Shown here piece after piece: positions 2,988 to 31,245 of a stretch of 64,000 bases of DNA (positions are counted from its first letter, which is position 1; the number at the start of each line of letters is the position of its first letter). Source of the stretch: Planctomycetota bacterium (GTDB taxonomy: Bacteria > Planctomycetota > UBA1135 > UBA2386); NCBI GenBank assembly GCA_016794565.1, contig JAEUHQ010000134.1, positions 1-64,000 on the forward strand, given 5' to 3'. The notes beneath the pieces are model-generated. The model saw only the letters and a program-made list of their open reading frames with translations. It ran no database searches and was not told where the DNA came from. The translations under genes and the position numbers were made by a program.

Positions 2988-4340
2988 TCAGTACGAGAGG
3001 GTCACGTAGACCGCGTTCGACACCGTGAAGCCGAGCGGAGTGGTGCCCGGATCGAGGCAATAGGCCTGCCCGAAGAAGACGTCGCCGATCCCACCGGTGA
3101 CCGACGACCAGGTCCAACTGGCACTGCCGCCGATGCCGTTCGCGACGATCGTGATGTCCGCGAACGTGAACGCCGAGCAGCCCGGCATGTCGATGATGCC
3201 GAGGTCGATGCCCGGGAGCTGGAAGAAGCCGAACGCGAGGATCGCGGCGCTGAACGCCGGAGCGAGGTTGCCCATGTTCAGGGTCCACGGCTGCCCTGTG
3301 CGCGGCGCGCTCGAGGCGGCGAGCGACGGTGTGCCGTTCGAGCCGGCGCACCCCTGACCGAAGACGCCCGAGCCTATGCCCCACGTCTCGTTCGTGAGCA
3401 CGAACGGCCCGGTCACGAAACCGCCGAACTTCACGACCTGCGCCAGATTCGGCAGGAACGCGGCCATGTGGTCGCGCACTCCGGTCGTCGTGGTCGGCTG
3501 CTGCGTCCAGCTCGCGCCGTCGAACGTCCACGTGTCGGCCAGCACGCCGTTCGCGTCCTGACCGCCGGTGAGCACGCAGAGGCCGCGGACGGCGTCGTAC
3601 GACAGGGTCGCGGCGTTGCGGCCAGGAGGCTTCACACCGGCCATCGCGACCTGCTGCCACGTGCCGGCGACACCGTCGTAGAGCCAGGTCTGGTCGGTGA
3701 CACCGCTGCCGTTGCCGCCGCCGAACATCACGGCCTTGCCGAGCCCCTGGTGGAAGCACATCGCCGGGCGTTCCCGCGGTCCCGGGTTGCCGGTCGTCGT
3801 GACCTGCACCCACGTCGTGCCGTCGTACTCCCAGGTCTGGCTGTTCGGCACCGAGATCAGCTGCGTGGTGGCGCCGCCGTACATCACGACGCGCGAACGC
3901 ACCGCGTCGTAGCACGCACCGTACAGATAGCGATTGCCCGGGTTCGCCGCTGGCGTCACCTGGGCCCACGTCGCACCGTTCCATTCCCAGGTCTGGTTCG
4001 TCGGAGGCGGAATGCTGATGTTCGACGCGAGTCCGCCGTAGAGAACGGCGACACCGCGGTTGGAGTCGTAGACGAGCTGCGCGCCCGAGCGCGCGGTCGG
4101 CGAGACCGCCGGCGCGAGCTGGGTCCACGCGAATCCGTCGAACGTCCACGTCTCGTTGTTGATCAGCGGCGCGGAACCGCCGAACAGCAGGAGGCCGCCG
4201 TTCAGGGGCACGTAGTCCATCGCCGCGCCGACCCGCGCCGTCGGGGACGGGGCGATCGCGAACTGCTGCCACTGGGCGAGAGCTGCGCTCGACGACGCCG
4301 CCAGGGCGAGGCCACAGCGGAGGATCAGGGGGATGTGCAT
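2988..4340 (-). CDS. secreted kelch-repeat protein with Cys-containing C-terminal domain
   Basis: The 450-residue product has a signal peptide (residues 1-22, ALAQ end) and about six kelch-like blades marked by LLLFGG, AVLYGG, VVMYGG, AVMFGG, CVLTGG and VVKFGG, each followed by a W-x-FDG or W-x-YDG strand (for example TWTFDGFAW). This predicts a beta-propeller outside the cytoplasm. From about residue 325 (GVFGQGCAG) a separate domain of about 125 residues follows, with a PGC motif. The same layout is seen in the protein at 24761-26140. The start is supported by AAGGAA a few bases upstream of the ATG. Ligand or partner is unknown. Confidence 0.85.
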   Translation of the reverse strand: MHIPLILRCGLALAASSSAALAQWQQFAIAPSPTARVGAAMDYVPLNGGLLLFGGSAPLINNETWTFDGFAWTQLAPAVSPTARSGAQLVYDSNRGVAVLYGGLASNISIPPPTNQTWEWNGATWAQVTPAANPGNRYLYGACYDAVRSRVVMYGGATTQLISVPNSQTWEYDGTTWVQVTTTGNPGPRERPAMCFHQGLGKAVMFGGGNGSGVTDQTWLYDGVAGTWQQVAMAGVKPPGRNAATLSYDAVRGLCVLTGGQDANGVLADTWTFDGASWTQQPTTTTGVRDHMAAFLPNLAQVVKFGGFVTGPFVLTNETWGIGSGVFGQGCAGSNGTPSLAASSAPRTGQPWTLNMGNLAPAFSAAILAFGFFQLPGIDLGIIDMPGCSAFTFADITIVANGIGGSASWTWSSVTGGIGDVFFGQAYCLDPGTTPLGFTVSNAVYVTLSY

Positions 4341-24760: not shown

Positions 24761-26140
24761 ATGGCACGCATTCCGTACGTTCTCGTCGCCGCCGCTCTCG
24801 CCGCCGCCCTGCCCGCGCAGAATCCGTGGGTCAAGATCACGCCGACCGCGTCGCCGGGTGCCCGGCGCGCGGGCGCGATGGGTTTCGACGGCACGGCCAA
24901 CCGGATGATCATCTACGGTGGCCTCACGCAGACGCCGTCGCAGATCCTCGGCGAGACGTGGAGCTACAACGGCACGACGTGGCAACTCCTGACGACCGCC
25001 GGAGGCCAGCCGCGGTGGGGCCACCAGATCGTCCGGATCCCGACCCTGAACCGCCTCCTGACCTTCGGCGGCCGCTCTCCGGCGATCACCACGCTCGCGA
25101 ACGACACGTCGCAGTGGACCGGTTCCGCGTGGACGCCGGTGGTCACCGTGCACGCGCCGACGCCGCGTTTCCGCTACGGCCTCGCCTACGACACGCTTCG
25201 CAACCGCGCGGTGCTCTTCGGCGGCCGCTCGTCGCTCGGGTCGATCGGCGACACGTGGGAGTTCGACGGCACCGACTGGACGCACATCACGACGGAGCAC
25301 TCTCCCGCGCCGCGCGAGGACATGCTGGTGAGGTTCGACGCGGCGCTCAACCGCACGATCCTGTTCGGCGGCTACGACGCCGATCTCGACATCCTCTACG
25401 GGGACACCTGGCAGTTCGACGGCGTCGACTGGAAGCAGGTCCTGCCGGCGTCCGGTGCCCCCACGCTTTTCCGCACGACCTCCGTGTACGACACGAAACG
25501 CAAGCGCATCGTCATGTCGGGCGGCTTCGACGGCACGAACTACTCGCAGGCGACGTACGAGTTCTCGGGTAGTTCGTGGGACCTCGTCGGTGGCGCCACC
25601 GGGACCCCCTTCACCACCGAGTCCTACGGCGCCTTCAACGGCCAGAACAACAAGTTCATCGTATTCGGCGGCGTCGGTGTCTCGTTCGGCAACGAGACGT
25701 GGGAATTCACCGGCAAGAACACGGCGATTGCCGGCATGTTCGGCGAAGGCTGCGCGACTTCGGTCGGCGTCGCCGAGGGCTCGGCGACGATCCCCGCGAC
25801 AACCGGGCTCACCTACACGATCCATTGGACCGGCCTGCCGCTCACGACCGCGGCAGTGATCGTGTTCCAGGGTCTGTCGAACCAGAACTACCAGGGCATC
25901 CCGCTGCCTGTCGACGCGTCGATCCTCGGGCTGTCCGGCTGCACTGTGCTCGTTTCGCCCGACTTCGTGTCCCTCGCATTGGCCGGCAGCGGCACGACCG
26001 ACACGACGATGTTCCTGCCGAACGACCCCACGCTCGTGAACCTGCCCTTCTACTCGCAGATCCTGATCCCGGACGACACCGCGGTGAACGGCGTCGGCGG
26101 CACGAGCCGCGGCATCCGGGCGATCATCGGCGCGCCGTAG
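24761..26140 (+). CDS. secreted kelch-repeat protein with Cys-containing C-terminal domain, second copy
   Basis: The 459-residue product has a signal peptide (residues 1-19, ALPAQ end) and six kelch-like blades marked by MIIYGG, LLTFGG, AVLFGG, TILFGG, IVMSGG and FIVFGG, with W-x-FDG or W-x-YNG strands between. From about residue 325 (GMFGEGCATS) a distinct domain follows with LSGCTVLVSPD, the same layout as the protein at 2988-4340. It is presumably exported and binds another protein or a glycan. It is divergent from the MoaD-MoaE gene, with 105 bases between. Confidence 0.86.
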   Translation: MARIPYVLVAAALAAALPAQNPWVKITPTASPGARRAGAMGFDGTANRMIIYGGLTQTPSQILGETWSYNGTTWQLLTTAGGQPRWGHQIVRIPTLNRLLTFGGRSPAITTLANDTSQWTGSAWTPVVTVHAPTPRFRYGLAYDTLRNRAVLFGGRSSLGSIGDTWEFDGTDWTHITTEHSPAPREDMLVRFDAALNRTILFGGYDADLDILYGDTWQFDGVDWKQVLPASGAPTLFRTTSVYDTKRKRIVMSGGFDGTNYSQATYEFSGSSWDLVGGATGTPFTTESYGAFNGQNNKFIVFGGVGVSFGNETWEFTGKNTAIAGMFGEGCATSVGVAEGSATIPATTGLTYTIHWTGLPLTTAAVIVFQGLSNQNYQGIPLPVDASILGLSGCTVLVSPDFVSLALAGSGTTDTTMFLPNDPTLVNLPFYSQILIPDDTAVNGVGGTSRGIRAIIGAP

Positions 26141-29499: not shown

Positions 29500-29502
29500 T
29501 CA
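29357..29502. repeat. two tandem copies of a 73-base unit
   Basis: Unit 1 is 29357-29429 and unit 2 is 29430-29502. They differ at two positions only (29393/29466 and 29426/29499). Each begins GAACCGGAGCGGCGCGCCG and ends GGTCCG(C/T)TCA. Unit 2 includes the stop codon of the secreted-protein gene at 29500-29502, so the unit arose from, or grew into, that gene's 3' end. The near identity indicates a recent duplication. Confidence 0.9.
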
Positions 29503-31245
29503 GAATGACGCGCGGTGCGCGTCCCACATCGACGCGACCCACGGCGACCACGACTTCGTCCAGCCGCTGGTTTCGATCTGCGTGTAGCGATCCATGTAGT
29601 CGAACAGCGCGTCGTGGCTCCAGGCCTGCTTCAGGCCCATCATGCGAGCGCAGAGTACGCCGCCGATCCAGGCGTTCGCGGTGCAGCAGCGGCGGTAGCT
29701 GTCGCCGAGCCAGTTCGAGTTGTCCGCGTTGGGCGCGTGCACGTGAGCGAAGCCGAACTCGGGCGTGCCGACGTCAGTGCTCGTGTAGCCACCGTAGCCC
29801 CAGTTCACCTGCGTCGCCGAGGTCTGCTGAACGACGAACGTCTGGCAGTCCTCGCCGAAGTGCGCGGTGTAGGTGCCGTTCAGGTTGCGCACGGACGGAT
29901 AGTTCGCGCCGACGGCGAGCATCTCGACATCGTGCAGCAAGGCGCCGGCGAACAGGATCGGCAGCTTGCGACCCGAGTCGTGGCCACCCGTGCCTTCCCA
30001 CGAGCATCCGTTCTTCACGTTGCCCCAGAAGTCGATGCCGACCTGCACGAGTCGCGTGACCAGCAGCTGCTTCTGTTGCAGCGGCAGGTTCACGTTGCAC
30101 ATCAGGGCCGACTCGTTGAACAGCGTCGTGAAGTCGCGGCCGTAGTCGGGCATGTTCTGGACCGGGTGCATGAAGCGAGCGGGCCAGCCCGGCGCATGGT
30201 CGAGCCACGGACGCTCGAACTTCGCCACCTGCGCCGACATCGACGGCATTCCCGACGAAGCGGTCACCGAGAGCAGCGCACTCCAGTCGATCATCTCGAC
30301 GTCGTAGGCGACCGAGTGGTCGTTGCCGGCGTAAGGCGGCCGGAACGAACCCAGCGGCGGCCGCACCGCGAGGCAGGTGAGCACTGCACAGGTGTCGATC
30401 TGCGGGATGAACGCCGTGTTCATGTTGCTGATGATCTTCACCAGGCTCTGGTTCGGTGCCAGCACGAGCGGATTGCCGGGCGCGAGGTTCTTCGCGACGT
30501 TCAGCGTGTCGGAGTACCGGTTCTCGTTGCCCGCGCCGTAGAGACCGCGGTCGTACCCCTGCATGTAGGTCGACGGATTGGGGTTGATCATCGCGCCGTG
30601 GATGACGCGGGTGCCGACGGTCGTGCAGGCGGGCTGCATGTCGACCAGCGTGACCGGCCCGATGACGAACCAGTCGCCGTTGACGAACTGCCCCGCCTCG
30701 ACCGGTTGCGCGAACTGGAACGTGATACCGAACTGCGTGATCGACGTGACCGGGCTCGTCGGGGTGGGCAGCGGCGCAACGCGGTTGCGCAGCGCCTTCG
30801 AGAGGCCGATCCCCGGTGCGTTGAGACCGGGCTCGGCGAAGAAGGCCTGGAAGTACAAGTCGCTCGCGGCGAGCACCGGATCCTCCGGAACCGGGAAACC
30901 CGCCGCGACCGTCGGCGAGGTCGTGAAGAAGGGCATCTGGATCAGCGGCGACACGAGAAGCGAGCAGCCCGGCATGTTCACGGGCGCCAGCGAAGCCGGC
31001 AGCACGACGCTCCCCCACTGCGTCCGCGAGTCCCCGATCATCAGGACGGCCTGCGCGAACGGCGTCAGGTGGTCGAGTTGGATCGTCGACCAGGAACCCG
31101 GTCGCATCGGCGGGAAGATGTCGATCGTCGCTTCCTGACCGCCGTAGCCACCACAGCCGGAGCCGAACTGCTCGATCACCGGGACCTGCGCGAGGAGCAG
31201 AGGAGTGGCGAACAGGGTCGCCAACAGCGAGGCCGTTTTTTGCAT
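29500..31245 (-). CDS. large secreted protein with N-terminal copy of the kelch-associated domain
   Basis: The 581-residue product has a signal peptide (residues 1-19, LLLAQ end). Residues 25-165 resemble the C-terminal domain of the two kelch proteins: a starting QFGSGCGGYGG, a LTPFAQAVLMIGDS strand, MPGCSLLVSP, and VPEDPVLAASDLYFQAFF. The remaining 400 residues are helical and rich in Trp, His and Cys (GCSWEGTGGHDSGRKLPILFAG, SYRRCCTANAWIGG), with a look of an alpha/alpha-barrel polysaccharide enzyme, but I do not recognise a family. The stop lies inside the 73-base repeat. Confidence 0.78.
   Translation of the reverse strand: MQKTASLLATLFATPLLLAQVPVIEQFGSGCGGYGGQEATIDIFPPMRPGSWSTIQLDHLTPFAQAVLMIGDSRTQWGSVVLPASLAPVNMPGCSLLVSPLIQMPFFTTSPTVAAGFPVPEDPVLAASDLYFQAFFAEPGLNAPGIGLSKALRNRVAPLPTPTSPVTSITQFGITFQFAQPVEAGQFVNGDWFVIGPVTLVDMQPACTTVGTRVIHGAMINPNPSTYMQGYDRGLYGAGNENRYSDTLNVAKNLAPGNPLVLAPNQSLVKIISNMNTAFIPQIDTCAVLTCLAVRPPLGSFRPPYAGNDHSVAYDVEMIDWSALLSVTASSGMPSMSAQVAKFERPWLDHAPGWPARFMHPVQNMPDYGRDFTTLFNESALMCNVNLPLQQKQLLVTRLVQVGIDFWGNVKNGCSWEGTGGHDSGRKLPILFAGALLHDVEMLAVGANYPSVRNLNGTYTAHFGEDCQTFVVQQTSATQVNWGYGGYTSTDVGTPEFGFAHVHAPNADNSNWLGDSYRRCCTANAWIGGVLCARMMGLKQAWSHDALFDYMDRYTQIETSGWTKSWSPWVASMWDAHRASF

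Follow-up and report, generated by a model that had tools for sequence, protein, structure and literature searches.

A predicted beta-sandwich domain at the ends of exported proteins in Planctomycetota

Introduction

Little is understood of how proteins are sorted across, or onto, the unusual envelope of Planctomycetota. The C-terminal domains of the type IX secretion system (T9SS) are Ig-like export signals at the C-terminus with low sequence conservation (PMC4804311, PMC10202324). PEP-CTERM and GlyGly-CTERM signals are short tails in which a hydrophobic helix is joined to a basic end, and a membrane enzyme recognises them (PMC1569441, PMC3237569).

Here we describe a protein domain in Planctomycetota that partly resembles both kinds of signal. 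By analogy, the T9SS C-terminal domains (types A, B and C, in Bacteroidota) appear to be its closest functional counterpart: in both cases a folded domain, Ig-like in T9SS and predicted to be distantly so here, sits at the extreme C-terminus of many unrelated Sec-exported proteins of one genome. The planctomycete domain differs in being longer (about 120–140 residues), in usually carrying a cysteine pair and in also being used at the N-terminus; it is found in Planctomycetota without SprA and is not matched by the models for T9SS C-terminal domains. Like the PEP-CTERM and GlyGly-CTERM tails, it recurs as a homologous C-terminal region in many exported proteins within a genome, but the proteins that carry it end inside a predicted beta-sandwich, and no hydrophobic helix with a basic tail was visible in the sequences that we inspected. 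With FN3, BACON and PKD modules it shares the character of a portable beta-sandwich, here predicted to be Ig-like, on exported proteins. Unlike these modules it is unrepeated and never internal, has conserved motifs of its own and has no Pfam match. We found no planctomycete C-terminal domain of a comparable kind described in open-access texts, and the domain is undescribed so far.

Results

The window, by which we mean the whole 64,000-nucleotide stretch of DNA that was analysed, holds three genes for exported proteins with this domain. Two of the three lie on the minus strand (2988–4340 and 29500–31245) and one on the plus strand (24761–26140). Their features are:

2988–4340, minus strand: kelch-repeat protein 1, exported, 450 aa, N-terminus MHIPLILRCGLALAASSSAALAQ (translation; Pfam PF24681 E=5e-25, PF13415 E=5e-14)
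2991–3380, minus strand: shared domain, C-terminal copy in kelch protein 1, residues about 321–450, conserved cysteines 331 and 388 (HMM match; 21-sequence alignment)
24761–26140, plus strand: kelch-repeat protein 2, exported, 459 aa, signal peptide MARIPYVLVAAALAAALPAQ (translation; Pfam PF24681 E=2e-22)
25712–26137, plus strand: shared domain, C-terminal copy in kelch protein 2, residues 318–459, conserved cysteines 331 and 394 (HMM match; alignment; AlphaFold2 model)
29500–31245, minus strand: protein 3, exported, two-part, 581 aa (translation; whole-protein model with mean pLDDT 95.6, pTM 0.92)
31186–31245, minus strand: signal peptide of protein 3, MQKTASLLATLFATPLLLAQ, without a lipobox (sequence)
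30757–31185, minus strand: shared domain, N-terminal copy in protein 3, residues 21–163, directly behind the signal peptide, cysteines 31 and 94 (HMM match; homologue alignment; model)
29503–30756, minus strand: passenger region of protein 3, 418 aa, a predicted beta-sandwich followed by a predicted all-helical domain (homologue searches; model)

The kelch repeats of proteins 1 and 2 are recognised by PF24681, PF13415 and PF13418 above the curated cut-offs of Pfam. Protein 3 has no match to any model in a Pfam-A search.

The tails of the two kelch proteins and the N-terminal segment of protein 3 are homologous. This is what the original prediction had proposed from the motifs G-x-FG-x-GC and (P/S)GC, which are indeed present in the domain. 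A search with a profile based solely on the kelch 1 and kelch 2 tails, which could have told against a shared domain, detected protein 3 at E=6e-6 (domain 1.8e-5) among all open reading frames (ORFs) of the window; there was no other significant match, the next-best frame having E=2.7. A pairwise BLASTP comparison of kelch protein 2 and protein 3 gave E=7e-5 across the shared domain, and with the kelch 2 tail as query against the host genome protein 3 was matched at 8e-5. Once copies from the genome had been added, the iterated profile gave E=2e-44 and 9e-35 for the kelch tails and 1e-41 for the N-terminal segment of protein 3, values for which the three scored sequences were themselves part of the model. 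Most members of the 21-sequence alignment have a low pairwise identity to the kelch 2 tail (23–36%); its invariant columns are the two cysteines and the glutamine of a late F/Y-x-Q motif.

Structure prediction points to a domain that is probably a folded Ig-like beta-sandwich of about 120–140 residues. The AlphaFold2 model of the kelch 2 tail, made from the 21-sequence alignment, has a mean pLDDT of 91.9 and a pTM of 0.85 and consists of a beta-sandwich with one short helix. In the model of protein 3 without its signal peptide (pLDDT 95.6, pTM 0.92), the first 140 residues follow the same order of elements: strands, a short helix before the region of the second cysteine, and strands again. The two predicted folds thus agree in strand order, as expected of a shared domain; the comparison covers the kelch 2 tail and protein 3 by order of elements, and the kelch 1 tail through the alignment.

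Foldseek found no close solved structure for either the domain or protein 3. The nearest ones are distant Ig-like or NPC2-type domains (TM-score at most about 0.47, E at least 0.0086), and the domain weakly resembles NPC2/ML lipid-binding proteins, PKD domains and antibody domains. NPC2/ML proteins gave the best match of the kelch 2 tail (E=0.0086), were also among the matches of protein 3, and are likewise all-beta with a disulfide, which in our domain is a predicted one. However, with a TM-score of about 0.4 and an rmsd of about 11 Å they are not homologues by the Foldseek test. Sequence searches of the PDB returned no relative, and we take the best match (E=0.55) to be due to chance.

The domain could not be matched to a known family, which bears out the original prediction on this point. 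No model in Pfam-A or NCBIfam covers it in the three window proteins at E-values up to 10 (one chance-level match lies outside the domain), and no model for it appears among the Pfam families of 102 proteins that carry it.

Both cysteines, besides being invariant in the 21-sequence alignment, are invariant in 11 homologues of protein 3. Of 53 copies in other genomes, both cysteines are present in 33 and both absent from 14, while 6, some of which look misaligned, are mixed (Fisher p=1e-7). The copies of the host genome divide into 74 with both, 7 with neither and 22 mixed (p=4e-4), and both p-values are inflated by the relatedness of the sequences. The 22 mixed copies mostly belong to one subfamily with a diverged start. 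Because the cysteines are kept or lost jointly, their pattern suggests that those of GxGC and (P/S)GC form one disulfide in most copies, and the pairing that had been raised as a question for these residues is probable. The cysteines are dispensable, as whole subfamilies of the domain lack both. A subfamily of tails (L107, L108, L102, L103, L112 and L123) has kept the second cysteine and has a diverged start without GxGC; several of its copies lie in tandem genes on one contig.

The domain is far from being a feature of three proteins, as it had first been presented. A profile search of the host genome (a planctomycete; 5.07 Mb in 223 contigs) found about 105 copies, so that the first count was an underestimate of about 35-fold. 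Placement could be read for the 103 copies with usable host ORFs. In 95 of these 103, at most 5 residues separate the domain from the stop codon, and chains commonly end in GxF, NTF or IGx. Another six copies are followed by a further 34–40 residues. We considered these as membrane-anchored variants and rejected the idea, as no hydrophobic membrane helix was visible when the extensions were read by eye. Only two copies are N-terminal, that of protein 3 and one in L093 (64–2298 on the minus strand of contig G000:C2), a protein with a signal peptide, the domain and then a metallo-beta-lactamase-fold hydrolase. None of the 103 is internal or in tandem; one ORF has two matches, the second of which is partial and lies upstream of the likely start, leaving no true second copy. 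The domain is portable and does occur at both chain ends, as predicted, but the C-terminus is used far more often than the N-terminus. We suspected that a beta-lactamase-like host, L060, was related to protein 3 and carried the domain at the opposite end, and rejected this on its sequence.

Judging by their families, the passengers of the domain are mutually unrelated and all of exported types. Pfam searches of the 102 host proteins recovered propellers (Rax2/DUF5122, 29 members), kelch (8 members), FG-GAP and WD40, along with single cases of sulfatase, MauG peroxidase, GSDH, beta-lactamases, GDSL lipase, trypsin-like, MBL and laminin-B types. By a crude home-made rule that overlooks obvious cases such as kelch 1, 61 of 96 hosts have a Sec-type signal peptide, which commonly ends A|Q. 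By the same rule a lipobox was called in 1 of 46 hosts (a false call) versus 15 of 81 other neighbour genes with a signal peptide (p=0.01, which overstates the independence of these related sequences). Protein 3 and its homologues with the domain have A-x-A/Q cleavage sites and lack a lipobox cysteine.

In the family of protein 3, the order of signal peptide, domain and passenger is common to 12 members in the order of the host, the window copy included. Where the domain is missing, homologues either combine a lipobox with another region (FN3-like, BACON-like or of a different kind) or have a signal peptide alone. Counted by eye, an ordinary signal peptide is found in 12 of 12 members with the domain and a lipobox in 9 of 9 members with an alternative N-terminus (p=3e-6, from two or three clades that are hence non-independent). 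Relatives with neither the domain nor a lipobox also have ordinary signal peptides, so the domain does more than just stand in for a lipid or does something else. Between homologues the domain is less conserved than the passenger (median identity 46% vs 65%, lower in 55 of 55 pairs), and both cysteines are kept.

Among 392 sampled genomes of Planctomycetota, 69 have the domain, and these include 31 of 36 other genomes from the lists for the order or family of the host. It was found in 0 of 99 genomes of Bacteroidota, in 0 of 195 genomes from the phylum of a genome titled Lentisphaerae and in 1 of 189 from the phylum of a genome titled Myxococcales, there as a kelch-plus-tail protein. Phage records gave no match to the tail. 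Of 33 matches inspected in eight further genomes of Planctomycetota, 30 reach the C-terminus itself and 3 lie near the N-terminus, two of the latter (L260 and L261) plainly right behind a signal peptide. On named planctomycete contigs there are 10 further matches, all 10 at most 15 residues from the C-terminus. Since the N-terminal arrangement is conserved in 12 protein 3 homologues and recurs in other lineages, it is no accident. In the genome G109, from the same order (5.3 Mb), the profile of the domain is matched 86 times at E≤1e-4; hence, the expansion of the domain is not peculiar to the host genome.

Discussion

We propose that the domain is a terminal tag for the localisation or retention of exported, non-lipidated proteins, and we put the probability of this reading at roughly one half. 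That the role is one in localisation or surface attachment is probable on positional and comparative grounds. In Planctomycetota lineages the tag would be attached once per protein to Sec-exported proteins that have no lipid or membrane anchor. Such a protein would leave through Sec, its signal peptide being cleaved at A|Q, as its sequence suggests. Outside the cytoplasm the tag would fold and its cysteines oxidise, in keeping with the model and with the covariation of the cysteines. A putative partner in the envelope would then recognise the folded tag and either carry the protein across the outer membrane or hold it at the cell surface or matrix. Placement at the C-terminus or behind the signal peptide, and never internally, would follow under this proposal because the tag has to be free at a chain end. 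We infer that the position at a chain end is due to recognition by a component of the envelope. It counts against the proposal that neither a partner protein nor a cleavage site or a motif for covalent attachment was identified, and that a few copies are N-terminal, where a strictly C-terminal sorting machine would not read them. The largest recurring groups among 220 neighbour genes, viewed as partner candidates, are TPR/WD40-type proteins and histidine kinases, which are scattered and unremarkable.

One could go further and argue that Planctomycetota have an undescribed system for export or surface sorting whose signal is this folded, disulfide-stapled tag, read at a free chain end that is mostly the C-terminus but also lies directly behind the signal peptide. 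We think this rather unlikely and offer it tentatively. If it were true, the tag would in some genomes direct about 2% of all gene products to the cell surface or the outside.

A serious alternative, if a somewhat doubtful one, is that the domain is a generic accessory beta-sandwich without any role in sorting, for example a carbohydrate- or ligand-binding module or a protease-resistant cap, comparable to CBM, FN3 or PPC domains. Its predicted Ig-like fold and its weak likeness to NPC2/ML, PKD and antibody domains would fit such a module well, and so would the FN3-like and BACON-like modules that stand in its place in homologues of protein 3. However, accessory modules are usually internal or in tandem and occur with a limited range of enzymes, whereas this domain is single-copy and terminal, has about 100 unrelated passengers in one genome and is nearly restricted to one phylum.

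We consider it improbable that the domain represents a 3' gene cassette, selfish or prone to recombination, that has spread by duplication with little function of its own. The very large number of paralogues could be explained in this way, and about 29 copies do sit on a single duplicated propeller family (Rax2/DUF5122). Yet the cysteine pair and the fold are retained on dozens of other, unrelated passengers, and the N-terminal form is conserved in 12 homologues, both of which argue for selection on the protein.

Membership in the type IX system, with the domain as a T9SS C-terminal domain in a genome that has this system, is very improbable, and we reject it, barring a translocon too divergent to be recognised. 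As with the C-terminal domain of RgpB (PMC4804311), many unrelated exported proteins end in an Ig-like beta-sandwich, here a predicted one. However, the SprA/Sov translocon was found in 0 of 392 genomes of Planctomycetota, the host included, by a search that recovered it in 4 of 4 Bacteroidota used as a positive control, and the domain itself is missing from all 99 Bacteroidota. Models for T9SS C-terminal domains are absent from the Pfam families of the 102 hosts (PF18962, PF13585) and do not match the three window proteins (NCBIfam TIGR04183, TIGR04131). As to the seven-stranded Ig-like sandwich of T9SS C-terminal domains, the model of our domain is a beta-sandwich whose Foldseek matches are Ig-like but distant, with PorU at E=0.1 only.

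The chance that the three segments are alike by accident or by composition (small residues, glycine, proline) is negligible, since against the low pairwise identity stand the profile match, the fold, the invariant cysteines and glutamine, the about 105 paralogues and an arrangement conserved in homologues.

On our preferred reading as a localisation or retention tag, the domain is a handle for tests with reporter fusions. About 100 exported proteins per genome with a domain at a fixed end predict a large unannotated secretome, and the family is now missing from annotation databases.

Homologues of the protein 3 passenger form a widespread family of exported proteins; searches that included a scan of named genomes, with protein 3 and its homologues as query, place them on contigs titled Planctomycetota, Bacteroidota, Spirochaetes, Desulfobacterota-type and Woesearchaeota archaeon. 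Pfam and PDB give no match for the passenger, which may be a polysaccharide-active enzyme. Mycobacteriophages of the Halley/Redno2 type also have a homologue, 33% identical over the length of the passenger, in a minor tail protein whose gene immediately precedes that for lysin A. In Mycobacterium phage Redno2 (NC_022066.1, 36025–37344) this homologue is annotated as “lysin A”. In the related phage Halley, lysin A has a gene of its own close by and the homologue is one of the minor tail proteins, so that the Redno2 label may be a misannotation.
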